From Clostridium ljungdahlii (GTDB taxonomy: Bacteria; Bacillota; Clostridia; Clostridiales; Clostridiaceae): a stretch of DNA of 64,000 bases. The notes below the pieces were generated by a model. That model was not told where the DNA came from. It searched no databases and saw nothing but the letters and a program-made list of their open reading frames with translations. The position numbers and the translations under genes are program-made. Each line of letters opens with the position of its first letter. Positions within the stretch are counted from its first letter, which is position 1. Positions 4,406 to 38,462 of this stretch are shown here, piece by piece. The stretch is taken from the NCBI RefSeq assembly GCF_001636845.1, contig NZ_LITT01000007.1:1-64000 (forward strand). Direction: 5' to 3'.

Positions 4406-4664
4406 ATAGAGTTTCTAAACGAAAAATCAACGTATACTCCAGATATTTTTTACAACCTTCAGCTCGTTAAATATTTTGATAAGGCTAAGTAAAAAATTTT
4501 GAAAAAATACTGAGAACTTTTGAAAACTCGTACCTCAAACAATTCAAAAGTTCTAGATTTTTCAAAAATTTTTCCCTAAGCCTTATAGACAAAATATTTA
4601 AAAGAGCTTCATTATTGTAAAAATATGCCTGCGTATAAGTTGATTTTTAAGTTAGAAACTCTAT
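4406..4664. repeat. Family A palindromic repeat, copy 1
   Basis: The element begins ATAGAGTTTCTAA and ends with the inverted TTAGAAACTCTAT. The two arms of about 110 bases pair almost throughout, folding into one very long hairpin whose tip is AACTTTTGAA, then a conserved loop with ACTCGTACCTCAAACAA, then TTCAAAAGTT. It fills the gap between the convergent EamA and alr genes, starting 3 bases after the former stop and ending 2 bases before the latter. It has no ORF. It may work as a bidirectional terminator. Near-identical copy at 38205. Confidence 0.85.
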
Positions 4665-4666
4665 AT

Positions 4667-5833
4667 TTATTTTAGATAGTTTCTAATTTTGATTATTTCT
4701 CCGTCTTTTATATATACCCTTGGAACTCTTCTACTTATGGAGCAGAGTATTTCATAACTTATAGTTCCAATTGTTTTAGCTATATCTTCTGCATCAAATT
4801 TCAATCCGTTTTTTTCACCCATGAGTATTACTTCATCGCCTACATTTACTTCACCTACAGCTGTAACATCTATCATGCACTGATCCATACAGATGTTACC
4901 AACTACTGGCGCAAATTTACCATTGACTATTACTTTTGCCTTTCCTGAAAGCATTCTAGTATAGCCATCTGCATATCCTATTGGAAGTGTAGCTATTACA
5001 CTTTCCCTTTCAGATTTGAATTTTCTTCCATAGCCAACGTATTTTCCGGCTTCCAATGTCTTTACGTAAGCTACTTTAGCTTTTAAACTCATTACAGGTT
5101 TTATGCTTAGATCATTTCTATCTACATCATCTGAAGGGTAGTATCCATAAATTATTATTCCTGGTCTAACTGCATCACAATAAGTATCTTGTAATTCCAT
5201 TATAGCTGCACTATTTGCGATATCTCTCAGGTTTATTTTTATCTTTCTACTTATGAGCTCATTGTAAAATGTTTTGTACTTTTCAAATTGTTCATGTGAA
5301 TATGTTTTGTCTTTTTCATCTGAAGTGGAAAAATGAGAAAATAAGCTTTGTATTTCTATATTTGGAAGCTTGCTCATGTTGTATATTTCTTCTATGCTAT
5401 TTTCATTTGGCTGAAATCCTATTCTTCCCATTCCAGTATCTACTGCAACGTGTATTTTTGCAGTTTTCCATTTACTTTTAGCTACCTTTGATAATTTACT
5501 TGCATATTCATAAGAAGGCACTACTGGCTCTACGTCATAATCTATTATGTCATTCAAAAAAGTATCTGGGACTATGCCAAGTATCATTATGGGAGCTTTA
5601 ATTCCATTTTCTCTAAGTTCTATTGCTTCATCTAACTCAGATACGGCCAATCTATTTACTCCATTTTCTAATAAAACCTGTGATACTTCCAAAGCTCCAT
5701 GACCATAGGCATTAGCTTTAACAATACCTATCAATCCTTTATTGTTACCAACTTTCAGCTTTATTTGACGTATATTATATACAAGATTGTCTAAATTAAT
5801 TTCTTCCCATACAGGTCTGTAATCTTTAAACAA
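4667..5833 (-). CDS. alr: Alanine racemase
   Basis: The 388-residue length is usual for Alr. The PLP lysine is in VKANAYGHGA near residue 39, the second catalytic tyrosine lies in the VGYGRKF region near 270, and NICMDQCMIDVT is the conserved C-terminal signature. It interconverts L- and D-alanine, supplying D-Ala for peptidoglycan or spore metabolism. The D-Ala-D-Ala ligase gene lies 164 bases upstream on the same strand, with a 15-bp stem-loop between them, so the two are functionally linked but may be separately transcribed. The start is supported by GGAGAATG upstream of the ATG. Confidence 0.95.
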   Translation of the reverse strand: MFKDYRPVWEEINLDNLVYNIRQIKLKVGNNKGLIGIVKANAYGHGALEVSQVLLENGVNRLAVSELDEAIELRENGIKAPIMILGIVPDTFLNDIIDYDVEPVVPSYEYASKLSKVAKSKWKTAKIHVAVDTGMGRIGFQPNENSIEEIYNMSKLPNIEIQSLFSHFSTSDEKDKTYSHEQFEKYKTFYNELISRKIKINLRDIANSAAIMELQDTYCDAVRPGIIIYGYYPSDDVDRNDLSIKPVMSLKAKVAYVKTLEAGKYVGYGRKFKSERESVIATLPIGYADGYTRMLSGKAKVIVNGKFAPVVGNICMDQCMIDVTAVGEVNVGDEVILMGEKNGLKFDAEDIAKTIGTISYEILCSISRRVPRVYIKDGEIIKIRNYLK

Positions 5834-5900
5834 AACACATTCTCCTTTCGATATTGATAGATATTATCCAATCAATAATAATGCACAATTAAAAATTAAG

Positions 5901-5942
5901 AGTTAAGAATTAATAGTTATAGATGATTATTAATTCTTAACT
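5901..5942. terminator. Long AT-rich stem-loop between ddl and alr
   Basis: A perfect 15-bp inverted repeat (AGTTAAGAATTAATA at 5901-5915 and its complement at 5928-5942) encloses a 12-base loop. It may attenuate or terminate the ddl transcript; no clean U-run follows, so this is uncertain. Confidence 0.5.
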
Positions 5943-5997
5943 TAAATATAATTTTCAACTAATAATAATCTATTGATGTCTATGAGTGTAACTCAAA

Positions 5998-6888
5998 TTA
6001 GAGTGAATATTGGATTATTTTATCCAATAGTTGGGAAAAAGATATATCAACTCCACCAGCACTCTTAGGAAATAGGCTATTTTTTGTAAGGCCTGGTAAA
6101 GTGTTTAGCTCAAGTACATAAGGAACACCATTTTCAACTATCATATCTACCCTTGCATAACTTTTGCATTTTAGAACTTCCCAGCATTGAACACATATTT
6201 TTTCAACTTTTTCTTGAAGAGATTTTTCAAGTTCTACAACTATTTCATCAGAACCACCATCTGCATATTTTGCAGTGTAGTCAAAGAATTCTGCATTAGG
6301 TTTTATTGCAATTACAGGGAGAGTTTTACCTTTTAACATACAGCATGTTATTTCATCTCCCTGTATATATTTTTCAATGACAATTTCAGTGTCGTAATCT
6401 AGAGCTAACTTTACGTTATTTTCAATATCTTCTTTTTTCTTAACTATATTAGTAGCAACACTTGAACCACCACAGTTAGGTTTTACAACTACAGGATAGC
6501 CTATCTCATCTAATTTATCATAATCAATTTCTTCTATAGATTTAACACAAATCCATTTGGCAGTATTTATGTCTGCAGATTTTAACACTTTTTTACTCAT
6601 GTCTTTGTCCATGCAAATGGCACTTGTCAAAGGTCCGCATCCTGAATAAGGTATATCCATGGTTTCAAGTACTGATTGTATAGTACCATCTTCACCAAAT
6701 TTACCATGAAGTGCAATAAATGCAAAATCTATATCTTTTACTTTTTTAAGCACATCTCTTTTTTTATCTATGACAATGGGTACAACCTCATATTTATTTT
6801 TATCTAAGCAGTTTACTATTTCTTTACCTGAATTTAGTGAAACCTCTCTTTCAGAAGATATTCCACCCATTATAACTCCTATTTTCAT
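5998..6888 (-). CDS. ddl: D-alanine--D-alanine ligase
   Basis: The 296-residue ATP-grasp protein has the N-terminal [20 protein letters not shown] signature, [11 protein letters not shown] near residue 60, [10 protein letters not shown] in the ATP-grasp core, and [11 protein letters not shown] with the Mg ligands near the C terminus. Length and motifs fit the short DdlB type. It joins two D-alanines for peptidoglycan precursors; the racemase supplying its substrate is just downstream. The ATG is preceded by GGAGGAATTAAC on the minus strand, fixing the start. Confidence 0.95.
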
Positions 6889-7077
6889 GTTAATTCCTCC
6901 ACTGAAATTGTTATTTAATATTTTTCAATTACTATGTCTAATATTTATTTTATACATTTTCCATATAAAATAAAGAACCACAGGATAACTAGTTTATCTT
7001 AAGTGTGGCTTTATGGATGGGGAAGAATATTAAGTTAAAAGTAAAGTAAAAATCTTTAAGAACAGAAAATATTGCTG

Positions 7078-7106
7078 TTGACATCTTTAAATTTCGCTGT
7101 TATAAT
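7078..7106 (+). promoter_or_regulatory. Promoter of the S-box/metQ transcript
   Basis: TTGACA (7078-7083) and TATAAT (7101-7106) match the sigma-A consensus exactly, with a 17-base spacer. The SAM riboswitch begins about 30 bases downstream. The remaining 6889-7077 stretch, upstream of ddl, shows no further feature. Confidence 0.9.
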
Positions 7107-7138
7107 GTAAATCACAAGTTAACAAAATTTAATATTAA

Positions 7139-7246
7139 CTTATCAAGAGAGGTGGAGGGACTGGCCCTATGAAGCCCGGCAACCAATGCTATTTTTAATA
7201 GTATAGTGGTGCTAATTCCTGCAGCATAAGCTGGAAGATGAGAGGA
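7139..7246 (+). promoter_or_regulatory. SAM-I riboswitch (S box)
   Basis: The core GAGGTGGAGGGACTGGCCC, then ATGAAGCCCGGCAACC, is the signature of the S-box aptamer. P1 pairs CTTATC (7139-7144) with GATGAG (7237-7242); the P3 and P4 hairpins lie between. High S-adenosylmethionine would favour the terminator that follows and switch off metQ. Confidence 0.95.
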
Positions 7247-7258
7247 TCATTGAGATTT

Positions 7259-7290
7259 TTAGCTCGAGGTTGTTCCTCGAGCTTTATTTG
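7259..7290 (+). terminator. Riboswitch-controlled terminator
   Basis: AGCTCGAGG-TTGTT-CCTCGAGCT (7261-7283) is followed by a T-rich tract. Its place just after the S box makes it the expression platform. Confidence 0.9.
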
Positions 7291-7379
7291 GTTTTAAATT
7301 GAAAATATGATATGAAAATTTTATATCTCAGCTTAATGCTTAGAAATTGTCTATTATTTTATAATCGGAGGGAACAAAA

Positions 7380-8201
7380 ATGAAAAAATTAATTACAGTT
7401 ATTTTATCACTAACATTGATCTTGGCATTAGCTGGATGTGGGGCACAAAGCAGTACAAGTTCTTCAAACAGTAGTAAAGGTGATGACAAAAAGGTAATAA
7501 AAGTAGGGGCATCTCCACAGCCTCATGCTGAAATACTAGAAAAGGTAAAACCTATACTAAAGAAACAAGGATACGATTTACAAATAGTTCAGTTTACAGA
7601 TTATGTAACTCCTAATAAGGCTTTGGATTCAGGAGATATAGATGCAAACTTCTTTCAACATATTCCATATTTAAATGAATTCAATAAAAAGAATAATACA
7701 AATTTAGATTATGTAGCAAAAGTGCATCTTGAACCTATGGGGGTTTATTCCAATAAAATCAAGAGTTTAAAAGATTTAAAAAATGGTGCTGAAATTGCAA
7801 TACCAAATGATCCTACAAATGGTGCAAGAGCATTAAAATTATTGGCTCATGAAGGAATTATAAAAGTAAAGAGCGGAGATCTTATTTCAAAATTAGATAT
7901 AACTGAAAACAAGAAAAACTTAAAATTCCAGGAACTTGATGCACCACAACTTCCAAGAACTTTAACAGAAGTAGATGCGGCAGTTATAAATACAAACTAT
8001 GCACTTCAGGCAAAGCTAAATCCACTTAAAGATGCTATTGCCATAGAATCTAAGGATTCACCTTATGCTAATATAATTGCTGTTAAAAAAGAAAATAAAG
8101 ACAAACCTTATATCAAGGCGTTGGCAAAAGCCGTTAATGATCCATCAATTAAAAAGTTTATACAGGAAAAATATAATGGAAGCATAATTCCAGCATTTTA
8201 G
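7380..8201 (+). CDS. metQ: Methionine ABC transporter substrate-binding lipoprotein
   Basis: The 273-residue protein has a lipoprotein signal with lipobox LALAGC (lipid-modified Cys at 20), a Ser-rich linker, and an NlpA/MetQ domain (KVGASPQPHAEILE, DGDIDANFFQHIPYLNEF-like segment, NDPTNGARAL). It binds methionine outside the membrane for the MetNI importer. The S box upstream fits methionine control. No metN or metI lies next to it, so it must work with a transporter encoded elsewhere. The start has GGAGG nine bases upstream. Confidence 0.92.
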   Translation: MKKLITVILSLTLILALAGCGAQSSTSSSNSSKGDDKKVIKVGASPQPHAEILEKVKPILKKQGYDLQIVQFTDYVTPNKALDSGDIDANFFQHIPYLNEFNKKNNTNLDYVAKVHLEPMGVYSNKIKSLKDLKNGAEIAIPNDPTNGARALKLLAHEGIIKVKSGDLISKLDITENKKNLKFQELDAPQLPRTLTEVDAAVINTNYALQAKLNPLKDAIAIESKDSPYANIIAVKKENKDKPYIKALAKAVNDPSIKKFIQEKYNGSIIPAF

Positions 8202-8204
8202 AAA

Positions 8205-8452
8205 ATAGAGTTGTAAGTAAAAAATTGACATATAAAGCGGAGTATGCTGCCAAAGTTCACTACTATAAAAACTTTTTATAAGTTTAAAGTTCTCTATTAT
8301 AAAAATTTAAGGTCTTTTGAATTGTTTGAGGTACGAGTTTTCAAAAGGCCTTAGGTTCTTATAAATTTTATGCTTAGATTTGTAAAAATATTTAACCGTA
8401 CTTGTGGTTGTAAAAATGTCAGGAGTATAAGTTTATTTTTTAGTTATAAATA
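8205..8452. repeat. Family A palindromic repeat, copy 3 (diverged, apex inverted)
   Basis: It begins ATAGAGTTGTAAG three bases after the metQ stop and ends near TTTTTTAGTTATAAAT, which pairs back to the start. The apex carries TTGAATTGTTTGAGGTACGAG, the exact reverse complement of the loop of the copies at 4406 and 38205. The arms differ substantially from those copies but still pair with each other, so base pairing seems to be preserved. No ORF. Confidence 0.75.
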
Positions 8453-8514
8453 ATACACATTTAAAATTTTTAATTTAGGCTTTGTTAGACTAAATTATTG
8501 ATACATACGTATTG

Positions 8515-8550
8515 AAAAAAGTAGTTCGGTTTTAACTTGAACTACTTTTT
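8515..8550. terminator. Bidirectional terminator hairpin
   Basis: AAAAAAGTAGTTC, an 11-base loop and GAACTACTTTTT form a hairpin flanked by A and T runs on both sides. Between it and the next gene (8551-8677) only AT-rich leader sequence is seen. Confidence 0.8.
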
Positions 8551-8677
8551 AGTATGCAAATTAGTAATATTCCATAGAATATACAAAAGAAAAAAGGATA
8601 AATTAAATATATAGTATAAGTTAATTACAAACTTAAGGTAAAATTTATATTTTAAAATCAAAGAAGGTGTTTTTCTT

Positions 8678-9472
8678 ATGAAAAGATTTTCTATTTTGAA
8701 CTATAACGCTTTTATAATTACATTGTTACTTGCATGTTTGAATTGTAGCAGTATTACATATGCGAATAAATTAAATATAACTAATAACAAATTTGAAGAT
8801 GAAAACATTCAAGAATTGCCTAAAGAAGTTTTTTTGACTTTTGATGATGGTCCATCTGTAAATAACACAAAAAAAATATTAAAGATATTAAATGATAACA
8901 ATATAAAAGCTACTTTTTTTGTAGTTGGAATAAAGGCAGAAGAAAATCCTACAGCACTTAAAGAATTAAGTAATAGTGGCATGTGCATAGGAGTTCATAC
9001 CTATTCTCATAATTATAAAAAAATATATAAAAATTTCGATGCTTATGCTAATGACTATGAAATGTGTAGAAATACAATAAAAAAAATAACAAATAAAGAC
9101 CCCATAAACTATACCCGACTACCAGGTGGCTCGACTAACCTAATAATTAGTAAAACAAACTTATCCTTAATAAAGAAAGCTTTAAATAATAAAGGAATAA
9201 AATATGTAGATTGGAATGTTTGTTCAGGTGATGCAGATAGTCATGAAGTACCTGTTGGAAAAATAAAAAGAAACGTTGAAAATCAATGTAAAAATAAAAA
9301 AATTGCAGTAATACTTATGCATGATACTTACTACAAGCATTTTACAGTAGAATCACTACCTGAAATAATAAAATACTTAAAAGACCAAGGGTTTAATTTT
9401 AGAACTTTTGAAAATTTAACGGAAGCAGAGGAAAAAGAACTGATGAAACTTGAAATAATAAATAAGAAATAA
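8678..9472 (+). CDS. Secreted or membrane-anchored polysaccharide deacetylase
   Basis: A hydrophobic N-terminal segment (residues 8-30) acts as signal or anchor. The NodB homology domain shows all five motifs: TFDDGPS (motif 1, Asp pair), HTYSHNY (metal His residues), RLPGGS (motif 3), DWNVCSGDAD (motif 4) and ILMHDTY (motif 5). It probably removes acetyl groups from cell-wall GlcNAc or MurNAc, as PgdA/PdaA proteins do. The 264-residue length is normal. The start has AAGAAGGTG upstream. It stands alone between two terminators. Confidence 0.88.
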   Translation: MKRFSILNYNAFIITLLLACLNCSSITYANKLNITNNKFEDENIQELPKEVFLTFDDGPSVNNTKKILKILNDNNIKATFFVVGIKAEENPTALKELSNSGMCIGVHTYSHNYKKIYKNFDAYANDYEMCRNTIKKITNKDPINYTRLPGGSTNLIISKTNLSLIKKALNNKGIKYVDWNVCSGDADSHEVPVGKIKRNVENQCKNKKIAVILMHDTYYKHFTVESLPEIIKYLKDQGFNFRTFENLTEAEEKELMKLEIINKK

Positions 9473-9562
9473 TATTTAAAACATAACTACCACAAATGCT
9501 ATTTATAACTTATCTTAATACTTTGATTAGTGGAACGGTTTTGAAATTAATATACAATTATA

Positions 9563-9617
9563 AAAATGATTTTAAGTTCACATTTTTTATACTATGATGT
9601 GGACTTAAAATCATTTT
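9563..9617. terminator. Convergent-gene terminator hairpin
   Basis: AAAATGATTTTAAGTTCACAT and a near-perfect complement enclose a short loop, with T/A runs outside. It separates the deacetylase gene from the converging YhgE gene. Confidence 0.8.
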
Positions 9618-9670
9618 GCATCAGATAAACACACTATACTATAATTGTATTTGTTATCACATTGGTATTA

Positions 9671-11830
9671 CTATAAACCTGATTCTTTGAATTCACTTTC
9701 TGCTTTATCAGTTAATTTGTGAAGAGGCTTTTTTAAGACAGAAATAATCAAAAATGCACCTGCAAAAGCCATTAAAGTGAGAAAATCCTTATACACATTA
9801 CTCCAAATAGGTCCTGCTATAGCTTCTCTGAATCCATTTATAGCATATGTAAAAGGCCAAAGCGGTTCTAGTACTCCAAATATCTGCGGCAAGGTTTTTA
9901 CAGGATAAAGTCCTCCTGCCCCTGCAATTTGAAAGACCATTATTATAACTGCAGCGGCTTTTCCAATGTTACCCATAATAGATACCAATGTAACTACAAT
10001 AATAGTGAAAGTAAAGCTGCAGGTAAGTGCAAATCCCATCATAAGCCATGAATTTTCAGGTTTTATTCCTACTATATATATGTCTCCCAAAGTTATAATG
10101 GTAGTTTGTATAATTGATATTATCAAAAACAGAAGCAATTTGGAAAAATATTTATGTGACAATTTCACTTTTTCTCCACTTTCGAGATCTTTACATTTTA
10201 GTGTTAGTATGGAGCATAACAACAAAACTCCCACCCATATTGCAAGAGTAGTGTAAAAAGGTGTTATTCCATATCCAAAAAGACCTGAATTATATAGTTC
10301 AACATTTTTTACTTCAATAGGTGATGATATAAGATTTGATATTTTATTGGGATCTTTTTCCATTATATTTATTATTGAAGTTAAGTTTTCATCGTTTAAG
10401 TCCTTCATTTTATCACTTAATTTGTTCAAGTTATTTTGAATATCTATTAATTTTTTATTTAGCCTGTCTCTTTGATTAACTAAATTTTTACTGCTTGATA
10501 TTCCTGAGTTTGCTACAAGATTTAATTCAGGTACCAATTGCCCGGTTGCGCTAAGTACAGAATCAATACTATCTAAATTGGATGTCAATGTGTCTGATAA
10601 TAAATTCATGGATTCATATGTCCCTGAATAAAACATATCTGATATATTGCTTATATCTTCCGATAATTCACTACTTAATGCTGAAAGTTCATATATAACT
10701 TGATTAATACTATCTTGTGAAGAGTTACTATTTATTAAATCCTTTAACTCCGCTAAATAATTGTTTTCAGTGTTTAACGAATTTCTTAATGATTTTAATG
10801 AATTTATAAGATCACTTGCTATATTAGTATTTGTAAATTCATTTATCTCATTTAGAATTTTAATATCCATATCTAGTTTGTCCATTAAAGAATTATTTAA
10901 ATTATTCATATTTTCTATAATACTTGTTGCTGAATTTTTACCAGCATCGGTATTATTTATATTTTGTAGGTTGTTAAGCAAAAGTTGAACTTGATTTTCT
11001 TTTGATTCAATTTCATTTATATCTTTATTCAAATCACTTTGCATAGAACTTAGAGATTGTTTGGTAGATAAAGTCAGTGTTCTGCTCTGTGCTACAATAT
11101 TATGGAGACTTGTTATCTCTTTGGACAACTTTGGCATATCTGTTTGAACTCCACTTAGATATTGCTGAAGGCTTTTGGAGTTGGAATTTTCCTGTGATAT
11201 ATGATTTTTTATATCATTTACAGTGGATACGGCTTCGGGTAATGTATCTTTTAATTGTAAAATTTCAGGCTTGTCTGTTTCAAGTTTTTTACCTGTGGAG
11301 TTTAGTAGTTTGAGAGCTTCTTTGTTTACTGATTTTGTAAGAGAGCTTTTTATAGTATCTGATAGGGAAGTTTTAGCTGAATCTGCAATTTTAGTGGCTA
11401 TTCCATTTAGCTTTTCATTGGACTTATAGATTATATTAGGCTTTTCAGGAGATGCTGTAATTAAAGTCGAAAGTTTGCTGGAAAAGTCAGCAGGTATCTC
11501 TATAAGTGAATAATATTTTCCTGAATTAAGGTTATAATTTCCCTGCCAGTCATCTATAAAAATCCAATTTATAGAATTATCTTTCTTTAAATTTTTAACT
11601 ATTTCATTTCCGACATTTATATTTTTACCGTTAATAGTTGTACCGCTGTCATTGTTTACTACGCCTATAGGCATTCTATTTGTATTGGCATAAGGATTCC
11701 ATGAGGCTTTAATGCTAATCCAGGCATAGGGAGATGGCAGGATACACAATAATAAAATTAAGGCAAGTACTGATGGAGTTTTTATTATATTTTTAAAATC
11801 CCTTTTTAATAGTTTGAATACTACCTTCAA
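9671..11830 (-). CDS. YhgE/Pip domain membrane protein (paralogue 1)
   Basis: The 719-residue protein begins with a transmembrane segment and the family signature PSPYAWISIKASWNPYANT near residue 32, followed by PIGVVNNDSGTT. Residues 180-510 are a long extracytoplasmic coiled-coil-like region rich in Asn, Ser and Leu. The C terminus (from 525) has about five helices of the ABC-2-transporter type, with LWPFTYAINGFREAIAGP. The family (named after the Lactococcus phage infection protein) is linked to phage adsorption and secretion, but its molecular role is unknown. It follows its paralogue by 87 bases and is probably in the same operon. Confidence 0.88.
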   Translation of the reverse strand: MKVVFKLLKRDFKNIIKTPSVLALILLLCILPSPYAWISIKASWNPYANTNRMPIGVVNNDSGTTINGKNINVGNEIVKNLKKDNSINWIFIDDWQGNYNLNSGKYYSLIEIPADFSSKLSTLITASPEKPNIIYKSNEKLNGIATKIADSAKTSLSDTIKSSLTKSVNKEALKLLNSTGKKLETDKPEILQLKDTLPEAVSTVNDIKNHISQENSNSKSLQQYLSGVQTDMPKLSKEITSLHNIVAQSRTLTLSTKQSLSSMQSDLNKDINEIESKENQVQLLLNNLQNINNTDAGKNSATSIIENMNNLNNSLMDKLDMDIKILNEINEFTNTNIASDLINSLKSLRNSLNTENNYLAELKDLINSNSSQDSINQVIYELSALSSELSEDISNISDMFYSGTYESMNLLSDTLTSNLDSIDSVLSATGQLVPELNLVANSGISSSKNLVNQRDRLNKKLIDIQNNLNKLSDKMKDLNDENLTSIINIMEKDPNKISNLISSPIEVKNVELYNSGLFGYGITPFYTTLAIWVGVLLLCSILTLKCKDLESGEKVKLSHKYFSKLLLFLIISIIQTTIITLGDIYIVGIKPENSWLMMGFALTCSFTFTIIVVTLVSIMGNIGKAAAVIIMVFQIAGAGGLYPVKTLPQIFGVLEPLWPFTYAINGFREAIAGPIWSNVYKDFLTLMAFAGAFLIISVLKKPLHKLTDKAESEFKESGL

Positions 11831-11862
11831 TTATAGTCCCTCCTAAAATTAATATTGTTTTA

Positions 11863-11917
11863 GGCATTTTCAAAGAAATAACTAGTCAGTATGCTAGGAT
11901 ATTTTCTTTCAAATGCC
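11863..11917. repeat. Family B repeat, short copy, directly after a stop codon
   Basis: GGCATTT...AAATGCC (11863-11917) is a hairpin. Its segment 11868-11897 is the reverse complement of 26205-26234 with one mismatch (core AGTCAGTATGCTAG). It lies immediately after the stop codon of the 11918-14080 gene, read on the minus strand. Confidence 0.7.
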
Positions 11918-17954: not shown

Positions 17955-18076
17955 TGTTATTAACTGTAAAACTTTAGAATTGCATGAAATTTCTATTTGA
18001 TTTATGTAATATATTGGGTATTTCAAGTTGACATAAAACTCTAATTATAATAAACTTAGAATATAAATTGAATAGA

Positions 18077-18255
18077 AGATTCAGGTGCCTTTATAGGTGA
18101 AAAGGGAATACGGTTAAACTCCGTAGCAGCCCCCGCTACTGTATGTGATGATGAACTTTAGTTACCACTCGTAAAAGAGGAAGGTTAAAGTAAATATGAA
18201 TCATAAGCCAGGAGACCTGCCTGATTGTTATTATATGCTTTCGGAGGGAGAGAAA
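18077..18255 (+). promoter_or_regulatory. Cobalamin riboswitch
   Basis: The aptamer shows AGGTGCC (P3 side), GAAAAGGGAA, the B12 box GCAGCCCCCGCTACTGT near 18126-18142, and AAGCCAGGAGACCTGCC near 18204-18220. These are the diagnostic blocks of the class I cobalamin riboswitch. A terminator follows, so adenosylcobalamin should repress the cobQ-led operon by transcription termination. The 17955-18076 gap before it shows no other clear feature. Confidence 0.95.
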
Positions 18256-28823: not shown

Positions 28824-29444
28824 ATGGATTATATAAAATCACCTATGGGAATAGAGAAAAGAAGTTTTGAAATAATAGGAGAAGAAATGGGAGAATGTAA
28901 TTTTCCTGAAAGAGAACTTTCTATAGTAAAAAGAGTAATACATACTACAGGAGATTTTCAATATAAAGATATACTCTATATAAGAGAAGGAGCTGTAGAT
29001 AGTGCCCTGGAACTTTTAAAAAAAGGTGTAACCATATATACAGATACAAATATGGCTGCAGCAGGAATAAATAAAAAGGTACTTGCAAAGCTCAATTGTA
29101 AAGTAGAATGTTTTGTGAGCAGAAGCGAAATAGCAGATATTGCTGAAGAAAAAGGTATAACCCGTTCTATGGCAGCCGTAGAAAAAGCTGTAGAAGAAGG
29201 TGTGGAGTTTTTCGTATTTGGGAATGCCCCTACAGCACTTTATAAATTAAAGGAGCTTACTTTAGCTGGAAAGGCAAAACCTAAATTTATAGTAGGAGCA
29301 CCAGTAGGATTTGTAGGAGCTGCAGATTCTAAAGAGGAAATAGAAAAACTTGATGTACCTATGATAACTATAAGGGGAAGAAAAGGCGGCAGCAACATAG
29401 CAGCTGCTATAGTAAATGCACTTATGTATATGATAACTAGATAA
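28824..29444 (+). CDS. cbiC: Cobalt-precorrin-8 methylmutase
   Basis: The 206-residue protein starts with [18 protein letters not shown], has [12 protein letters not shown] near residue 37 with the conserved active-site histidine, [13 protein letters not shown]-like sequence ([13 protein letters not shown]), the NAPTALY block and [15 protein letters not shown] near 165. It moves the C11 methyl to C12, forming hydrogenobyrinate-type cobyrinic acid. CbiD follows 25 bases later. These markers are unambiguous for CbiC/CobH. Confidence 0.95.
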
Positions 29445-29469
29445 TTTGGCACTTTTAGGTGGTGATATT

Positions 29470-30552: not shown

Positions 30553-30574
30553 AATTTTAATAGTAGGTGTGGTT

Positions 30575-31192
30575 ATGAATACAAAGGTTTTTATAGTAGG
30601 CATAGGACCTGGAAATAAAGATTACATACTTCCAAAGGCGGTAGCTGTAATGAAACAGTCACAGGCTATATTGGGTTTTGAAAGAGCAGTAGATAGTTTG
30701 AATTTTATAGATGGTAATAAGATAAAGGTAAAAAAGTTAAAGGATATACTTGATATTTTGCAGTCTGGGAAATATGAAAGTGTATCTGTTACAGCTTCTG
30801 GAGATCCACTTTACTATGGTATAACAGAGTATTTAAAAAAGAATTATGACGGTGACATAGAAGTTATTCCAGGTATAAGCTCTTTTCAATATATGATGGC
30901 AAAAGTAAAACTTAGCTGGCAGGGAGCTTTTTTAGGAAGTCTCCACGGCAGAGAGGAAGATTTTTTAGGCATAGTAAAGGAAAATTATATTTCTATATGG
31001 TTTACGGATAAAAAGCATTCACCAGATTATTTGTGCAGCATTCTAGAAGAAAATGCTGTACATGCAGTAGTGCATGTAGGAGAAAATCTTTCTTATGAGG
31101 ATGAGAAAATCACTTCAGGAAGTGCTGCACAGCTAAAAAATAAAGACTTTGGAGGTCTTTGTGTAGTTGTAATTGAAAACAAAACTCTATAA
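30575..31192 (+). CDS. cbiE: Cobalt-precorrin-7 C5-methyltransferase
   Basis: The 205-residue SAM-dependent tetrapyrrole methyltransferase starts with VFIVGIGPGNKDYILPKA, followed by VTASGDPLYYGI near 72 and EVIPGISSFQYMMAKVKLSW near 95. It lacks a CobL-like C-terminal domain; that partner activity is the separate CbiT directly downstream, as usual in anaerobic pathways. ATG 30575 with AGGTG five bases upstream is preferred to the GTG two codons earlier. Confidence 0.9.
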   Translation: MNTKVFIVGIGPGNKDYILPKAVAVMKQSQAILGFERAVDSLNFIDGNKIKVKKLKDILDILQSGKYESVSVTASGDPLYYGITEYLKKNYDGDIEVIPGISSFQYMMAKVKLSWQGAFLGSLHGREEDFLGIVKENYISIWFTDKKHSPDYLCSILEENAVHAVVHVGENLSYEDEKITSGSAAQLKNKDFGGLCVVVIENKTL

Positions 31193-31209
31193 AAGTGGGA
31201 GAAATTTTT

Positions 31210-31776
31210 ATGAGATATATAAAAGATGATGAATTTATAAGAGGAAACTGTCCCATGACAAAAGAGGAAATTAGAATACTTAGTATTGCAAAACTTGGAA
31301 TTGAACCAGATTTTAGAGTGCTGGATGTAGGTGCTGGAACAGGTTCTGTAAGTGTACAGATGGCTAAGATATGCTCTAAGGGACAGGTAGTTGCGGTTGA
31401 AAAAAATGAAGAAGCACTTTCTGTAATTGAAAAAAATATAGAAAAATTCAATGTAAACAATTTAACAGTTGTAAGAGGAGAAGCACTTGAGGTAGAGGAA
31501 AGCATAAAGCCTTATTTTGATGCTGTATTTATAGGTGGCAGCGGAGGAAATATAGAGGAAATAATAAAAAGATATGGTGCAAAGCTAAAAGAACATGGAA
31601 AAATGGTGCTTAATTTTATAACTTTAAATAATTTGTATAAAGCCCTTGATACTCTAAAAGGTATGAAATGTGAAGTAGAATGTATACAAGTATCAATAAA
31701 CAAGACCAGGGCAAATAGCTATATGATGACTTCTAATAACAGTATATTTATAGTAAGTGCAGAGAAACTAAGTTGA
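31210..31776 (+). CDS. cbiT: Cobalt-precorrin-6B C15-methyltransferase (decarboxylating)
   Basis: The 188-residue class I methyltransferase begins with IKDDEFIRGNCPMTKEEIR, the CbiT marker, and has the SAM-binding loop VLDVGAGTGSVSVQMAKI near 42, then VFIGGSGGNIEEIIKRYG near 105. It methylates C15 and decarboxylates the C12 acetate side chain. CbiE directly upstream performs the C5 methylation. ATG 31210 with GGGAG upstream is used; the in-frame GTG at 31195 precedes that site. Confidence 0.92.
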   Translation: MRYIKDDEFIRGNCPMTKEEIRILSIAKLGIEPDFRVLDVGAGTGSVSVQMAKICSKGQVVAVEKNEEALSVIEKNIEKFNVNNLTVVRGEALEVEESIKPYFDAVFIGGSGGNIEEIIKRYGAKLKEHGKMVLNFITLNNLYKALDTLKGMKCEVECIQVSINKTRANSYMMTSNNSIFIVSAEKLS

Positions 31777-31806
31777 TTTTATTATGTAGTGAGGATGTGA
31801 AAACTT

Positions 31807-32493
31807 ATGGAAGAAAATACCTTAAAGATGGGTACTCTCTATGGTATAGGAGTTGGACCTGGAGATGAAGAATTACTGACGCTAAAAGCTGTAAATGTAA
31901 TAAAAAAGTGTGAGGTAATAGTTGCACCTTCAGCAAAAGATGGAGATAGAAGCATAGCTTTTGATACAGCTAAAAATTTTGTAGATGAAAGTAAAGAAGT
32001 TATAATAAAACACTTTCCAATGGGTGGAAAAGAGCAGGAAGGAAAGATATTTGAAGCTTTTAAGACTATAGAGGAAAGATTAAATGAAGGTAAAAATGTG
32101 GCGTTTTTGACTATAGGTGACCCTTTTGTATACAGCACCTATATATATCTTTTAGATCACATTAAAAACAAGGGATATAAGACAGAAACTGTACCTGGAA
32201 TAACATCTTTTTGTGCTGCTGCAAGTCTAGCAGGACAGAGCATTGTTATAGGGGATGAGAGGGTTTTGATTCTTCCTGCATCTCAGGTAGATAAGATAAC
32301 AGATGAGAAGTTTGTAGTAATAATGAAAGTATACAAAAAAGAAGAAAATGTATTAAATGTATTAGAAAAAAAAGGATTCAAGTACGTATGTGTAAAGAGA
32401 GCTTATAGAGAAGGACAGGAAGTACTTAAAAATAGAGAAGATATACTAAAAAGCAGAGATTATATGTCTCTTATAATAGCCCAAAGAGATTAA
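31807..32493 (+). CDS. cbiL: Cobalt-factor II C20-methyltransferase
   Basis: The 228-residue tetrapyrrole methyltransferase has LYGIGVGPGDEELLTLKAVN, then VIVAPSAKDGDRSIA, which is typical of CbiL/CobI, the GDPFVYSTYIYL substrate loop and TVPGITSFCAAASLAGQS. It methylates C20 of cobalt-sirohydrochlorin, the first ring methylation after cobalt insertion. It sits between cbiT and cbiF with spacings of 30 and 12 bases. The ATG at 31807 follows a GTGAGGATGTGA region. Confidence 0.9.
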   Translation: MEENTLKMGTLYGIGVGPGDEELLTLKAVNVIKKCEVIVAPSAKDGDRSIAFDTAKNFVDESKEVIIKHFPMGGKEQEGKIFEAFKTIEERLNEGKNVAFLTIGDPFVYSTYIYLLDHIKNKGYKTETVPGITSFCAAASLAGQSIVIGDERVLILPASQVDKITDEKFVVIMKVYKKEENVLNVLEKKGFKYVCVKRAYREGQEVLKNREDILKSRDYMSLIIAQRD

Positions 32494-32505
32494 AGGAGGA
32501 AGAAC

Positions 32506-33282
32506 ATGACAAATAAAGTTTACTTTATAGGAGCAGGACCGGGAAATGCTGATTTAATAACAGTTAAGGGAAGAGATATATTAAAAACTGCAGATGTAGT
32601 TATATATGCTGGTTCACTTGTAAGCAAAGATCATTTGGAATACTGTAGAGTTGGAGTAAAAATATATAATTCTGCTTCTATGACCTTAAATGAAGTTATC
32701 GATGTTATAAAAAAATATCATGGGGAAGGAAAGAAAATAGTTAGACTGCATACAGGAGATCCAACCATATATGGGGCTATAAGAGAGCAGATGGATGAAC
32801 TAGACAAGCTTGGAATAGATTATGAAGTTGTTCCAGGAGTAAGTTCCTTTACGGCTGCAGCAGCTGCTATAAATAGAGAATTTACCCTGCCAAGTATAAG
32901 TCAAACTATAATTCTCACAAGAGTAGAGGGAAGAACTCCCGTACCAGAGAAAGAAAATTTGGAAAGATTAGCTTCTGTAGGAGCTTCCATGGCACTGTTT
33001 TTGTCTGTAAGCATGATAGACAAGGTAGTGGAAAAATTAAAGAAAGGCTATGGTAGAAATGTGCCTATAGCAGTTATTCAAAAAGCTACCTGGGAAGATG
33101 AAAAGTGTGTTATAGGAACTTTGGATGATATTGTAGAAAAAGTAAAGAAGGAAAATATAACAAAAACAGCGCAGATACTTGTAGGAGATTTTATCAATTG
33201 TAAATATGATAAGAGCCTTTTGTACGATGAAAATTTTACCCATATGTTTAGAAAGGCAAAAAATGAAAATAGCGGTAATTAG
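32506..33282 (+). CDS. cbiF: Cobalt-precorrin-4 C11-methyltransferase
   Basis: The 258-residue protein has VYFIGAGPGNADLITVKG, VVIYAGSLVS near 35, VRLHTGDPTIYGAIREQMD near 85 and VVPGVSSFTAAAAAINREF. VIYAGSLV and TLPSISQTIILTR are characteristic of CbiF/CobM. It methylates C11 of cobalt-precorrin-4. AAAGGAGGAAG precedes the ATG. The last 20 bases overlap the start of cbiG in another frame, which points to translational coupling. Confidence 0.93.
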   Translation: MTNKVYFIGAGPGNADLITVKGRDILKTADVVIYAGSLVSKDHLEYCRVGVKIYNSASMTLNEVIDVIKKYHGEGKKIVRLHTGDPTIYGAIREQMDELDKLGIDYEVVPGVSSFTAAAAAINREFTLPSISQTIILTRVEGRTPVPEKENLERLASVGASMALFLSVSMIDKVVEKLKKGYGRNVPIAVIQKATWEDEKCVIGTLDDIVEKVKKENITKTAQILVGDFINCKYDKSLLYDENFTHMFRKAKNENSGN

Positions 33283-34264
33283 CGTTACAACTGCAGGAGA
33301 TAAAATAAGTGATAAGATAAAAAAGCATTTTCCTATAGATCTTTATTCTAAAAATAATATGGAAGGTTTTAAACTTAAAGCTGCAGCAGAAACTGCCATG
33401 TCAAATTACAAGGCAGTTGTATTTATAAGTTCTACAGGTATAGCTGTAAGAGCCATAGCAAGCTTTATAAAATCAAAAGATAAAGATCCTGCAGTAGTTG
33501 TCATAGACAGTTCCTGTAAATTCGTAATCAGTCTTTTAAGTGGTCATTTAGGTGGAGCAAATGAGCTTACCTGCAAATTGGCAAGTATCCTTAAAGCTGT
33601 TCCTGTAATAACTACGGCTACGGACAATATTGGGGTAAAAGCACCGGATGTCTTTGCAAAAGAAAATGGACTCATTATAAATGATTTAAAAGATGCTAAA
33701 TACATAGCTGCCCTTTTGGTGGACGGTAAAAAAGTAGGATTTATAGATGAGGATAAATTACTGGATGTTCCTAAAGGTTACAGCAGCAAGTTAGATAATA
33801 TACAGGGACTTTTGTACGTTACAAATAAGTGTAAAGCCTTTGATGAGGAAAAATTCAAGAATATAAAAACACTAAAACTCATAAGAAAAAATATTGTGCT
33901 GGGAGTTGGCTGCAGGAAAAATTTTGATTCCTGGCAGATGACAGAAACAGTTAAAAAGCTGCTTTTAGATTACAATATAGATGAAAGGGCTGTAAGGTAT
34001 ATTTCTACTGTGGAAATTAAGGCAAAGGAAGAGGCCATATTAAAACTTGCAGAATATTTCAAATGTGATTTAAAAATATATTCTATAGAAGATATAAGAA
34101 AGGTACATCACAACTATAAAGGCAGTGACTTTGTTGAAAAAACAATAGGCGTAAGGGCAGTGTGTGAGCCTTGCACAGAACTTACGGGAGCATCCTTAAT
34201 TACGGATAAAATAAAGGCAAATGGAATGACCTTGTGTATAGGTGAAATACATAAAAAACTGTGA
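33263..34264 (+). CDS. cbiG: Cobalt-precorrin-5A hydrolase
   Basis: The 333-residue protein starts with MKIAVISVTTAGDKISDKI, then VFISSTGIAVRAIASFI near 72, VIDSSCKFVISLLSGHLGGAN near 95 and TATDNIGVKAPDVFA, all typical of CbiG N and middle domains; the C-terminal domain has NIVLGVGCRKN and GVRAVCEPCTE. It opens the delta-lactone ring, releasing acetaldehyde, during ring contraction. I chose ATG 33263 inside cbiF; frames starting further upstream lack a ribosome binding site and family similarity. Confidence 0.93.
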   Translation: MKIAVISVTTAGDKISDKIKKHFPIDLYSKNNMEGFKLKAAAETAMSNYKAVVFISSTGIAVRAIASFIKSKDKDPAVVVIDSSCKFVISLLSGHLGGANELTCKLASILKAVPVITTATDNIGVKAPDVFAKENGLIINDLKDAKYIAALLVDGKKVGFIDEDKLLDVPKGYSSKLDNIQGLLYVTNKCKAFDEEKFKNIKTLKLIRKNIVLGVGCRKNFDSWQMTETVKKLLLDYNIDERAVRYISTVEIKAKEEAILKLAEYFKCDLKIYSIEDIRKVHHNYKGSDFVEKTIGVRAVCEPCTELTGASLITDKIKANGMTLCIGEIHKKL

Positions 34265-34308
34265 ATCAAAAATTGTGCATTGTGCATTAAATAAAGGATG
34301 TGTGTAAA

Positions 34309-35031
34309 ATGGGTAAACTTTATGTAGTAGGAATTGGACCAGGTGGATATGAAAATATGACTTTACGTGCTGTAAAGGTAATAGAAAATAGTGAAATAAT
34401 TGTAGGATATACTAAGTATATAGAGATGATAAAAGACATAATTAAAAATAAAGAGGTAATTTCAACAGGCATGAGAGCTGAAGTGGAGAGATGCAAAAAA
34501 GCACTTGAACTTTCAAAAGACCACATAGTTTCCATAGTGAGTACAGGTGACCCAGGAATATATGGTATGGCAGGGCTTATCTTGGAAATGAGAAAAGATG
34601 AAGACGTAGAAGTAATTCCAGGACTTACAGCTTCCTCTGCAGCAGCTTCTATAGTTGGAGCACCTCTTATGCATGATAACTGTAACATAAGTTTAAGCGA
34701 CCTTATGACTCCTTATGAGCTTATAAAGAAGAGAATTGAACTTGCAGCTTCTGGAGATTTTGTAATGTCACTTTATAATCCTAAAAGTAAGGGTAGGCCC
34801 CATTATTTAAAGGAATGTATTGATATTGTGAAAAAATACAGGAAAGGCAATACCCCTATAGCCGTAGTTAAAAATGCACTTAGAGAAGGTCAGGAGCATA
34901 AGCTTTTTACACTTGATTCTTTTGATGACAGCGTAGTTGACATGATGTCTGTAGTTATAATAGGAAACAGTAACAGTTATATAAAAGATGGAGTATTTAT
35001 AACTCCCCGTGGTTACAAAATTCCAGAGTAG
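34309..35031 (+). CDS. cbiH: Cobalt-factor III C17-methyltransferase
   Basis: The 240-residue methyltransferase shows LYVVGIGPGGYENMTLRAV, IVGYTKYIEM near 30, VSTGDPGIYGMAGL near 80, EVIPGLTASSAAASIVGAPL and SLYNPKSKGRPHYL near 155, typical of CbiH/CobJ. It methylates C17 and drives ring contraction. ATG 34309 is preceded by AAAGGATG. The short spacer from cbiG contains TTGTGCATTGTGCATT, a small direct repeat also seen in part near 5880. Confidence 0.92.
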   Translation: MGKLYVVGIGPGGYENMTLRAVKVIENSEIIVGYTKYIEMIKDIIKNKEVISTGMRAEVERCKKALELSKDHIVSIVSTGDPGIYGMAGLILEMRKDEDVEVIPGLTASSAAASIVGAPLMHDNCNISLSDLMTPYELIKKRIELAASGDFVMSLYNPKSKGRPHYLKECIDIVKKYRKGNTPIAVVKNALREGQEHKLFTLDSFDDSVVDMMSVVIIGNSNSYIKDGVFITPRGYKIPE

Positions 35032-35065
35032 AATTAAAGACTATTTTTAAAAGAGGTGATAAGAT

Positions 35066-35890
35066 TTGAAGGAAGCAAAAAGAGGAATACTTGTGGTAAG
35101 TTTTGGTACAAGCATATTGGGAACACTTAAAAACTGTATTGAAGACACGGAAAATGAAATTAGAAATGAATTTAAGGAATATGCAGTTAGAAGAGCTTTT
35201 ACCTCCGGAATAATAATCAAGAAATTAAAAAATCAAAAGGAAATTTATATAGATACAGTGCCCGAAGCCCTGGATAAAATGAGGGAGGAAGGCTTTAGAG
35301 AAGTTTATGTTCAGCCGCTGCATATAATGCCAGGAGATGAATATGACAAGGTAGTTCGCTGCGTAAATGAATATCAAGGGTCCTTTAGTAAACTGGTTCT
35401 AGGACGCCCTGTACTTTATAGACAAAGTGATTATATAATAGCTGCCAGGGCATTAAAAAAACAGCTTCCACCTCTTAGCCAAAATGAAGCTGTAGTGTTA
35501 ATGGGACATGGCTCTTCCCATCCAAGTAATTCTAGCTATGCTCTTTTCCAATATGTATTAGATGATTTGAAGATAAGAAATACTTTTGTAGCTACTGTAG
35601 AAGGGTATCCTGCAATTGATAATGTAATACCTAAGTTGAAAAAAAATAATATTGAGAAAGTAACATTAATGCCTTTTATGTTAGTAGCAGGAGATCATGC
35701 CACAAATGACATGGCAGGTGAAGACAATGATTCCTGGAAGCAAATACTTAAATCTAAAGGATTTGAGATAAATACATATCTTCATGGACTTGGAGAAAAC
35801 AAGGCTTTTCAGGAGATATATGTGCAGCACATTAGAGATTGTATAGAAGGCAATCCTCTTATGGATGAAAAGATGAAAGTTAGAATGTAA
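35066..35890 (+). CDS. cbiK: Sirohydrochlorin cobaltochelatase
   Basis: The 274-residue protein has ILVVSFGTSILGTLKNCI at the start, the catalytic histidine in YVQPLHIMPGDEYDKV near 92, VVLMGHGSSHPSN near 145 and MPFMLVAGDHATNDMAG near 200. These are the metal-binding histidines of CbiK. It inserts Co(II) into sirohydrochlorin, committing the pathway to the early-cobalt anaerobic route. The start is TTG 35066 after AGAGGTGAT. Its position late in the operon does not reflect its early role. Confidence 0.93.
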   Translation: MKEAKRGILVVSFGTSILGTLKNCIEDTENEIRNEFKEYAVRRAFTSGIIIKKLKNQKEIYIDTVPEALDKMREEGFREVYVQPLHIMPGDEYDKVVRCVNEYQGSFSKLVLGRPVLYRQSDYIIAARALKKQLPPLSQNEAVVLMGHGSSHPSNSSYALFQYVLDDLKIRNTFVATVEGYPAIDNVIPKLKKNNIEKVTLMPFMLVAGDHATNDMAGEDNDSWKQILKSKGFEINTYLHGLGENKAFQEIYVQHIRDCIEGNPLMDEKMKVRM

Positions 35891-35902
35891 GGAGATTTTC
35901 AT

Positions 35903-36679
35903 ATGATAGGATTAATTCTTGGAACTTCTGAAGGTAGAAAAATACTTTCTTTACTAAATGAATTTACTTCTGATATATTTGTATCTACAGCAACGGAATA
36001 TGGTGGAGAGCTTCTTAAAGAATATAAATATGCTTATATGAACAACAAACCCCTCGATCTCCATGAGCTTATAAGTGAATTAAGGGAAAAAGGTGTAAAA
36101 GTGCTAGTGGATGCCTCGCATCCTTATGCAGTGGAAGTTACTAAAAATGTAATTAAGGCATGTAATGAGTTAAATATACAGTATATAAGATATGAAAGAC
36201 CTTCTTGTATAGAAGAATTTAAAAATGAGGATAAAGTTGTAGAAGTAGAGGATTATAATGAACTTAAATTGAAGCTTAAAGAGATAAAGGGAACTATATT
36301 AAATACTACAGGTAGTAAGAGTTTAGACAAGGTTTTGGGTCTAAAGCTTAAAAATAGAATAATATATAGAGTTTTACCTTCTGTTAAAGTTATAAAGGAA
36401 TGTAATGATAGAAAAATAGACCTAGGGGATATAATTGCCTTAAAGGGACCTGTCAGCTATGAACTAAATTGTGCCTTTATAAAAGACTATGAAGCTGAAG
36501 CCATGCTGCTTAAAGACAGCGGCAGGGAAGGTGGAACTTATGAAAAAATAAGGGCCTGTCTGGATTGTGGAATATATGCTTTTATAATTGGAAGAAAAAA
36601 AATGAATTATAATAATATTAATGTTTTTTACAATGTAAATGAACTTGTGAAATATATAAAGACAATAAAAAATTTGTAA
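35903..36679 (+). CDS. cbiJ: Cobalt-precorrin-6A reductase
   Basis: The 258-residue protein begins MIGLILGTSEGRKILSLL, with the family GT-EGR motif, VSTATEYGGELL, VLVDASHPYAVEVTKNV near 70 and YIRYERPS. The C-terminal region has ALKGPVSYELNCAFI and LLKDSGREGGTYEKI. It reduces cobalt-precorrin-6A with NADH or NADPH (the CobK/CbiJ family). AAGGAG precedes the ATG and it follows cbiK by 12 bases. Confidence 0.92.
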   Translation: MIGLILGTSEGRKILSLLNEFTSDIFVSTATEYGGELLKEYKYAYMNNKPLDLHELISELREKGVKVLVDASHPYAVEVTKNVIKACNELNIQYIRYERPSCIEEFKNEDKVVEVEDYNELKLKLKEIKGTILNTTGSKSLDKVLGLKLKNRIIYRVLPSVKVIKECNDRKIDLGDIIALKGPVSYELNCAFIKDYEAEAMLLKDSGREGGTYEKIRACLDCGIYAFIIGRKKMNYNNINVFYNVNELVKYIKTIKNL

Positions 36680-36691
36680 AGGGTGTATTTT

Positions 36692-37549
36692 ATGGAGACT
36701 TCAACAATTTATCCTGGAAGTTTTGGAGAGATACTTCAGGGAAAAATAGAAAATAGAGATCTTTTATTGTCTTGTCCCGTAAATATTTATACTAAAGTTA
36801 AACTTATAGAATGTAATAATCCCATAAGGAAAAGATACCTAAAAAAGTCTTCTAGTTTTTTGTACAATATTCTTAAATCTTGGGGATATGAAAAGTATTT
36901 TGATAGTCTAGATATAGAAATAAACTCCGAGATTCCATATGGAAAGGGACTTGCCAGTAGTACGGCAGATCTTTGTGGAGTTTATTATTGTCTTATTAAT
37001 ATGTTTAATAAAAAATTCAATGAGGCAGAACTTGTGAAAAACTGTATAGATATAGAGCCTACAGATAGTATAGTATTTAATAAGATGACTTTATTTGATT
37101 ACAAAAGTGGTAATTACAAATTCACCATAGGAGATTATTTATCTTATAATATACTTGCTTTTGAAGGAGATAAAACAGTAGACACAGTTGAATTTAATCA
37201 CAAAAATTTACCTGATTTATGTGATGTTAAAGAATTACTTCCAATACTTAAGGAAGCGGTGAAAGAAAAAGATTTACATAAGCTAGCCTATGTTTCAACT
37301 GAAAGTATAGTGAAAAATCAGAAAAGGCTTTATTATGATTTTTTAAGACTAGTGATGGACATAAAAGAAAAAACTTCAGGTCTTGGAATAATAGGAGCAC
37401 ACAGCGGAAATGTTTTAGGAATAATATATGATGATGCAGAAAAGTTCAAATTTGAAGAAAAGTTCTTAAAAGGATTAAATTTAAAAAACATAAAGATATA
37501 TAAAGTAAAAGCTTTAAGTGAAATTTCACTGCCAGTGGAATGTATTTAG
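36692..37549 (+). CDS. GHMP kinase, PduX-like L-threonine kinase
   Basis: The 285-residue protein starts with STIYPGSFGEILQGK, typical of PduX, and has the GHMP ATP-binding loop IPYGKGLASSTADLCGVYY near 85 and a C-terminal GHMP motif GLGIIGAHSGNVLGIIY near 240. PduX phosphorylates L-threonine to threonine phosphate, the CobD substrate, so the gene completes the aminopropanol arm. ATG 36692 (AAGGGTG nine bases upstream) is chosen over GTG 36683. Other GHMP kinase substrates cannot be excluded, but the context is strong. Confidence 0.82.
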   Translation: METSTIYPGSFGEILQGKIENRDLLLSCPVNIYTKVKLIECNNPIRKRYLKKSSSFLYNILKSWGYEKYFDSLDIEINSEIPYGKGLASSTADLCGVYYCLINMFNKKFNEAELVKNCIDIEPTDSIVFNKMTLFDYKSGNYKFTIGDYLSYNILAFEGDKTVDTVEFNHKNLPDLCDVKELLPILKEAVKEKDLHKLAYVSTESIVKNQKRLYYDFLRLVMDIKEKTSGLGIIGAHSGNVLGIIYDDAEKFKFEEKFLKGLNLKNIKIYKVKALSEISLPVECI

Positions 37550-37685
37550 TATGATTATGTGATGGCAAAAATTCTTTTTACAATAATTATTGACATAATA
37601 TATGCATACTAATAAACTTAAAGTAAGAGAAAGAATTTAGGTATTGAAAGAAAATAACTTATTATAAGGAAGAGGGTTATCTGTT

Positions 37686-38201
37686 ATGGATAAAGGATAT
37701 ATTCAAGTTTATACTGGAAACGGCAAAGGTAAGACTACAGCGGCACTGGGATTATCTCTTAGAGCTGTATGTGCTGGCAAAAAAGTATTTTTTGGACAGT
37801 TTGTTAAGGGCATGGAATACAGCGAGTTAAAGGCAAAAGAATATTTACCTAATTTTACATTAGAACAGTTTGGAAGAAATTGTTTTATATGCGGTAAACC
37901 AAATAAAGCTGATATAGAAGCAGCCAAAACTGGACTTAAAAAAGTTGAAGAAATAGTTACAAAGGGAGATTATGACGTAGTAGTATTGGATGAAATAAAT
38001 ATAGCTATATTTTATGAGCTATTTACAGTAGATGAAGTTTTGCAAATTTTAGATAAAAAACAGGAAAAGACTGAAGTAATACTAACTGGAAGATATGCAG
38101 ATAAGAGAATAATAGAAAGAGCAGATTTAGTTACAGAAATGAAGGAAATAAAGCATTATTATACAGAAGGTGTCCCAGCAAGAGTTGGAATAGAAAATTA
38201 A
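37686..38201 (+). CDS. cobO: Corrinoid adenosyltransferase (CobA/CobO type)
   Basis: The 171-residue P-loop protein starts with YIQVYTGNGKGKTTAALGLS, the Walker A loop of CobO/BtuR enzymes, and has FFGQFVKGMEYSE and YDVVVLDEINIAIFYEL near 98. It transfers the adenosyl group from ATP to Co(I) corrinoids. A 136-base gap containing a possible new promoter (TTGACATAATATATGCATACT region near 37589) separates it from the threonine kinase gene, so it may have its own transcript. A family A repeat begins three bases after the stop. Confidence 0.93.
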   Translation: MDKGYIQVYTGNGKGKTTAALGLSLRAVCAGKKVFFGQFVKGMEYSELKAKEYLPNFTLEQFGRNCFICGKPNKADIEAAKTGLKKVEEIVTKGDYDVVVLDEINIAIFYELFTVDEVLQILDKKQEKTEVILTGRYADKRIIERADLVTEMKEIKHYYTEGVPARVGIEN

Positions 38202-38204
38202 CCT

Positions 38205-38462
38205 ATAGAGTTTCTAAACGAAAAATCAACTTATACTCCGAATATTTTTTACAACCTTCAGCTCGTTAAATATTTTGATAAGGCTAAGTAAAAAATTTAA
38301 AAAAATACTGAGAACTTTTGAAAACTCGTACCTCAAACAATTCAAAAGTTCTAGATTTTTTAAAAATTTTTTTCTAAGCCTTATAGACAAAATATTTAAA
38401 AGAGCTTCATTATTGTAAAAATATCTCTACGTATAAGTTGATTTTTAAGTTAGAAGACTTAT
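38205..38462. repeat. Family A palindromic repeat, copy 2
   Basis: It is nearly identical to 4406-4664, from ATAGAGTTTCTAAACG at the left to AAGTTAGAAGACTTAT at the right, with the same apex (ACTCGTACCTCAAACAA). The arms pair with each other over about 110 bases. It starts three bases after the cobO stop. The right terminus differs slightly from the left (GAAGACTT instead of GAAACTCT). Confidence 0.85.

Follow-up and report, generated by a model that had tools for sequence, protein, structure and literature searches.

Long palindromic repeats with a conserved apical loop lie mostly just past stop codons in Clostridium ljungdahlii and recur in other clostridia

The Yersinia palindromic sequences known as YPAL or RU-2 were reportedly described by De Gregorio et al. 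in 2006 as inserting close past stop codons. The part of PMC2229807 that deals with YPAL presents it as a non-coding palindromic repeat of about 168 bp, without TA at its ends, not A+T-rich and flanked by target duplications of 3–26 bp, whose RNA forms a stable stem with a presumed influence on upstream transcripts, while the corresponding part of PMC2847712 gives its number as tens of copies. For ERIC, Correia/NEMIS and RUP repeats, the relevant part of PMC2229807 lists terminal inverted repeats, 5'TA3' ends and an end-to-end pairing stem, and it states that the effect of ERIC on upstream mRNA depends on orientation and that the presumed mobiliser of RUP is an IS630-type transposase. REP sequences, as portrayed in the pertinent section of PMC3733652, occur on the downstream side of coding regions, in tandem or convergent gene arrangements; they form opposite-oriented pairs, and their termini in many cases provide a TAG stop codon. 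Stem-loop families of 93, 74, 31 and 90 bp are listed for C. perfringens and C. tetani in the section of PMC2267715 concerned. The present study concerns a longer palindromic repeat found in a 64,000-nt stretch of Clostridium ljungdahlii DNA (contig NZ_LITT01000007.1, positions 1 to 64,000; hereafter, the window), copies of which lie mostly within 30 nt of a stop codon.

The element is a near-perfect palindrome, about 258 nt long, which forms a single end-to-end hairpin around the 18-nt loop AAACTCGTACCTCAAACA, with an AT-rich stem of about 120 bp (−89.9 kcal/mol, z = −13.5; 0 of 200 shuffles equally stable) and ends of the type ATAG(A/G)G...C(T/C)CTAT. In the alignment of 30 type-1 copies, 9 of 70 consensus pairs were changed on both sides with pairing kept. 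The copies within the window contain no open reading frame (ORF) of at least 80 aa, and the 258-bp palindrome with its ATAGAG/ATAGGG ends matches the general build of miniature inverted-repeat transposable elements (MITEs) of the ERIC/NEMIS/RUP kind, being short and non-autonomous, bounded by terminal inverted repeats and free of a transposase gene. Rfam 15 gave no match over the window elements at gathering score, and a search of positions 38150–38500 at E up to 5 returned only unrelated matches, all under gathering score. Two subtypes were distinguished by the continuation of the loop (CAATTC or CATATC). Among loop-typed copies, there were 18 couples of neighbours with a separation below 400 bp. 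In 17 couples the two copies faced each other, and in 16 of these 17 the partners belonged to different subtypes. The idea that complementary loops might kiss in such pairs was dropped, since, where a facing pair lies between convergent genes, the loop of each copy is just in sense orientation to the gene next to it.

Like YPAL, the clostridial element is a non-coding palindrome present in tens of copies, whereas its length, A+T-rich composition and TA-type ends (the latter in one subfamily of a second genus) are different, and its loop is common to several subfamilies and bacterial families. Compared with ERIC, Correia/NEMIS and RUP, it is about twice as long, has a conserved apical loop and occurs without an IS630-type transposase in 7 of 12 carrier genomes. 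With REP/REPIN it has in common the downstream position, the facing pairs and a TAG stop supplied by the terminus; however, REPs are 20–40 bp long with a GTAG or CGTC tag, as opposed to about 258 bp with ATAG(A/G)G ends. The exact loop strings were not found in the literature text searched, nor were such repeats found in the titles and abstract openings of the literature on clostridia. As far as the searched literature goes, neither the family nor its length, conserved loop and clostridial range appears to have been described, while this kind of behaviour is already known from REPs.

The position of the element was assessed in the genome of the window using 69 of its 78 loops. Each element was set to 258 nt centred on the stem midpoint, here and in the terminator census, and gene ends were derived from open frames of at least 60 codons rather than from annotation. 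Copies without a second loop within 700 bp were regarded as solitary, a definition under which the ends of the longer composites of the second genus (see below) were also counted as solitary. Of the solitary copies, 35 had a sense stop codon upstream, and in 34 of them the distance to that stop was 30 nt or less; for copies spread uniformly over the intergenic intervals concerned, the expectation was 10.4 and the maximum 20 in 20,000 simulations. Thus, the proximity to stop codons in this genome is far beyond chance.

The earlier note on this DNA had reported ATAGAG at positions 4406, 8205 and 38205, each 3 bases past the stop codons ending at 4402, 8201 and 38201 of unrelated genes, and had proposed a fixed distance due either to targeting of gene ends or to a gene-end module such as a processed terminator. 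The coordinates were verified, and Pfam identified the upstream genes as EamA, NlpA lipoprotein (MetQ family) and CobO, i.e., as unrelated. Stop distances were then tabulated for the 30 best copies, which did not include the 8205 copy; a stop was assigned in 29 and lacking in one. Gaps ranged from −6 to +30 nt in 28 of the 29 copies, the remaining gap being 200. The association of a dispersed repeat with gene 3' ends, as opposed to random scatter, was upheld; a single constant distance was rejected, since a gap of 3 occurred in only two copies, both from the window (4406 and 38205). In five copies (L003, L006, L008, L013 and L030) the gap was −4, so that the TAG within the ATAG of the element was the stop codon of the gene itself. 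The earlier observation of the sites was partly confirmed, and its interpretation as a gene-end element was partly supported. Either targeting of gene ends or retention there by selection would be compatible with the position data.

The copies also show a bias of direction. Between tandem genes of the window's genome, 27 copies were sense and 13 antisense, a second copy being present within 700 bp for 7 of the 13; in convergent regions, the sense stop was the nearer one for 14 of 17 single and 10 of 10 paired copies, and two copies were located between divergent genes. In a genome of a second genus (G019), where 89 of 91 loops were analysed, there were 37 sense and 5 antisense copies between tandem genes, 26 of 35 convergent singles were nearer to their own sense stop, and 10 copies lay between divergent genes. 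The direction bias is thus repeated in the second genus, with looser spacing. All 10 lagging-direction copies in its convergent regions were nearer to their own sense stop, with gaps from −4 to +68, although these copies are not independent, five having an opposite-facing copy within 2 kb and others resembling composite ends. Replication strand as the sole cause of orientation was disfavoured.

Sharp ends were observed in the CAGG-loop subfamily of G019, which comprises 29 copies with a median identity of 91% and ends ATAGGG...CCCTAT. Both ends were located in 23 of the 29 copies, and 20 of these 23 measured 258 bp. All 17 G019 copies with perfect ends had T before and A after the element (T/ATAGGG...CCCTAT/A), which is compatible with duplication of a TA target, or else with a palindrome that extends one base further. 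In the same genome, composite non-coding repeats of approximately 1.3–1.8 kb were present between convergent genes (L447, L448, L453 and L455; for example, contig positions 2433487–2434811 and 2555641–2557046), in which a hairpin with the loop marks one end or each of the two, and a conserved interior of about 1 kb contains many small GC-rich GGCGATAGCC-like hairpins; the sole Rfam match on L447, L448 and L455 was a cobalamin riboswitch in L448.

Copy number was estimated with two loop patterns. The wider one (AACTCGN{2,6}CTCARACA), applied to whole genomes, gave 78 exact loops in the genome of the window, 67 and 81 in two genomes of the same genus (G003 and G005) and 91 in G019; of the 13 genomes from the genus of the window, the remaining 10 contained no loop. 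The narrower pattern (AAACTCGN{2,6}CTCAAACA) was present in 36 of 391 genomes of the class, with 347 matches in sum against 15 for the reversed control, which gave at most one per genome; at least 5 matches were found in each of 14 genomes spanning seven families. The loop motif AACTCG-N(2-6)-CTCA(A/G)ACA thus occurs in other clostridial families, and 13 of 15 more distant loci that aligned across the loop by similarity bear it, the query itself having contained the loop. A profile search, with palindromic double matches merged, yielded 86 copies or fragments in 62 retrieved stretches, while plasmid and phage collections gave no match to the element. In G377, one of three further genomes for which 10 loci each were analysed (G377, G275 and G239), 8 of the 10 loci (L389–L416) contained loop-sharing elements of about 200–220 nt, some with the ends ATAGGGTGCATG...TATGCACCCTAT.

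The cobO site was compared among 80 retrieved loci, of which only those of C. ragsdalei, the closest named cobO relative (99%), and C. thailandense held the loop; the cobO identity puts the window close to C. ragsdalei. The hairpin directly past the cobO stop is of type 1 in the window and type-2-like in C. ragsdalei (L249). The C. thailandense hairpin 3' of cobO (L250), reached via the cobO protein, contains the loop motif and aligned with the window element over 114–147 nt at 77–79% identity, so that the hairpins are homologous in the inner stem, with a diverged outer stem. At the site where the window holds the single 4406 copy, G003 has a type-2/type-1 pair. Elsewhere, a type-2/type-1 pair is apparently inverted in place between G003 (L137) and the window's genome (C12, 265.9–266.5 kb), with both flanks collinear. 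A comparison of G019 with G435 for gene ends occupied by different subfamilies revealed no clear case.

In the window itself (Table 1), the 4406 copy fills the gap between convergent genes, its far end lying 2 nt from the alr stop, whereas the 8205 copy has an orientation opposite to its upstream gene. The hairpin at 8521–8550 was not listed by the pattern scan, which was limited to loops of 3–8; given its terminator-like form and its position beyond the element, the metQ copy sits between the stop codon and a likely terminator. The window also holds an S-adenosylmethionine riboswitch upstream of metQ (7137–7244), a cobalamin riboswitch (18066–18238) and a tRNA (41070–41141).

Table 1. Palindromic elements, loops and adjoining features in the window (positions counted from its first nucleotide).
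Feature	Coordinates	Strand	Remark
Full type-1 palindromic element, 259 nt	4406..4664	+	Sense to EamA gene; 3 nt past its stop
Apical loop AAACTCGTACCTCAAACA of 4406 copy	4524..4541	+	
Stop codon of EamA transporter gene (3341-4402)	4400..4402	+	
Stop codon of convergent alanine racemase (alr) gene (4667-5833)	4667..4669	-	
Diverged full copy	8205..8456	-	Antisense to metQ; 3 nt past its stop (8199-8201)
Loop of 8205 copy	8323..8340	-	
Terminator-like hairpin GTAGTTC-(11 nt)-GAACTAC-TTTTT beyond 8205 element	8521..8550	.	Spotted by eye
Full type-1 element	38205..38462	+	Sense to cobO; 3 nt past its stop (38199-38201)
Loop of 38205 copy	38322..38339	+	
Partial copy, profile positions 143-244	38664..38765	+	

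The location past stop codons, convergent gene pairs included, would suit gene-end terminator modules, the role that the earlier note had offered in the form of a processed intrinsic terminator. However, an intrinsic terminator is a short GC-rich stem followed by a U-tract, whereas the stem here is about 120 bp and AT-rich; a hairpin with a T-run followed only 1 of 41 solitary copies in the window's genome, compared with 10 of 114 element-free gene ends and 3 of 114 shuffled sequences, and at metQ a separate terminator-like hairpin stands beyond the element. Although the scan is too weak to place transcript ends, only 10 of 114 ordinary gene ends scoring in it, a terminator role is very improbable and that part of the earlier proposal was unsupported. 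Somewhat less improbable, but still doubtful, is a conserved cis-regulatory RNA of the 3' untranslated region (UTR), whose loop would be recognised by a protein or an RNA, with the carrier genes making up a regulon. The sense orientation, the conservation of the loop while the stems change and the recurrence of the element next to cobO in C. ragsdalei and C. thailandense as well as in the window are in its favour; yet the 28 genes with a 3' element that were scanned (Pfam match in 27) were mixed and had no common theme, the loop-sharing elements of G377 lie mostly between divergent genes, and most genomes of the same genus carry no loops at all.

A stronger competitor, though one that we regard as rather unlikely, is active targeting, in which the machinery would favour gene 3' ends as insertion sites (such as TA dinucleotides by stop codons, or termination zones) and selective removal elsewhere would play no part. 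It is consistent with the very tight stop spacing in the window's genome, with the T...A flanks of the exact-end G019 copies, with the different hairpins found right past the cobO stop in the three species and with the CAGG-loop subfamily of G019 lying no farther from stops than the other copies (11 of 24 against 22 of 50 sense copies at 30 nt or less). By contrast, the pairing of matched G019 flanks did not exceed that of shuffled ones, 286 of 500 shuffles being equally good, and no joined flank formed a terminator, although this strict scan had no positive control and scored none in any set, shuffled joins included. In the window's genome, 11 of 500 shuffles paired as well as the matched flanks, a mild signal for a dyad target. 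Insertion into a terminator was unsupported, the tests being weak. An IS630-type transposase as the mobiliser was likewise unsupported, as the presence of PF13358 does not track the element, with matches also in 6 of 10 non-carriers.

The reading we prefer, and consider the probable one, is that of a family of non-coding, MITE-like palindromic repeats residing in 3' UTRs. Copies would have been dispersed by some mobility machinery and now lie mostly right past stop codons, mainly in the direction of the gene, so that sense copies would be transcribed along with it and form a long hairpin in the 3' UTR; this hairpin may be tolerated, or may be favoured by shielding mRNA from 3' decay or by serving as an RNase cleavage site, as proposed for YPAL, ERIC and REP. 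Mobility, transcription and any effect on mRNA are put forward here by inference, the latter two from the position of the copies and from published work on ERIC, NEMIS, YPAL and REP repeats. Several results weigh against this reading. Leading-strand gene bias could mimic the sense bias, and G019 offers only 5 lagging-strand tandem cases (3 sense, 2 antisense). Template-switch repair, instead of selection, could be the keeper of the palindrome and its paired changes. T...A flanks were found in just 6 of 13 scorable copies of the window's genome, no clean empty site with a target duplication was found, the sole candidate appearing to retain an end fragment, and PF13358 had no match in 7 of the 12 carriers (G003, G019, G239, G275, G377, G397 and G313). 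Proximity was weaker in G019, where 30 of 71 singles were within 30 nt against 17.4 expected, with simulations reaching at most 30. In G377, 6 of 10 loci were between divergent genes and two loops lacked a long stem; 9 of 10 G275 copies were sense but 64–464 nt from the stop; and in G239 a sense stop was upstream in 7 of 10, with gaps from −15 to 116.

A more speculative and improbable extension is that the conserved apical loop (AAACTCG-N-CTCAAACA, a near mirror repeat) may be an RNA recognition site of a clostridial factor, sense placement within a transcript being needed for the element to spread or persist; it would then resemble a short interspersed element (SINE), i.e., an RNA-dependent hairpin element with its niche right past the stop codon.

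The repeats described here constitute an apparently undescribed family of long hairpins at clostridial gene ends, in a group allied to gas-fermenting acetogens; by the wider loop pattern, the four genomes richest in them hold 67, 78, 81 and 91 exact loops. Copies of this kind would alter the 3' UTRs of many core genes simultaneously. The orientation bias and the common loop make it possible to test how palindromic repeats reach the ends of genes and whether mRNA is affected by them.

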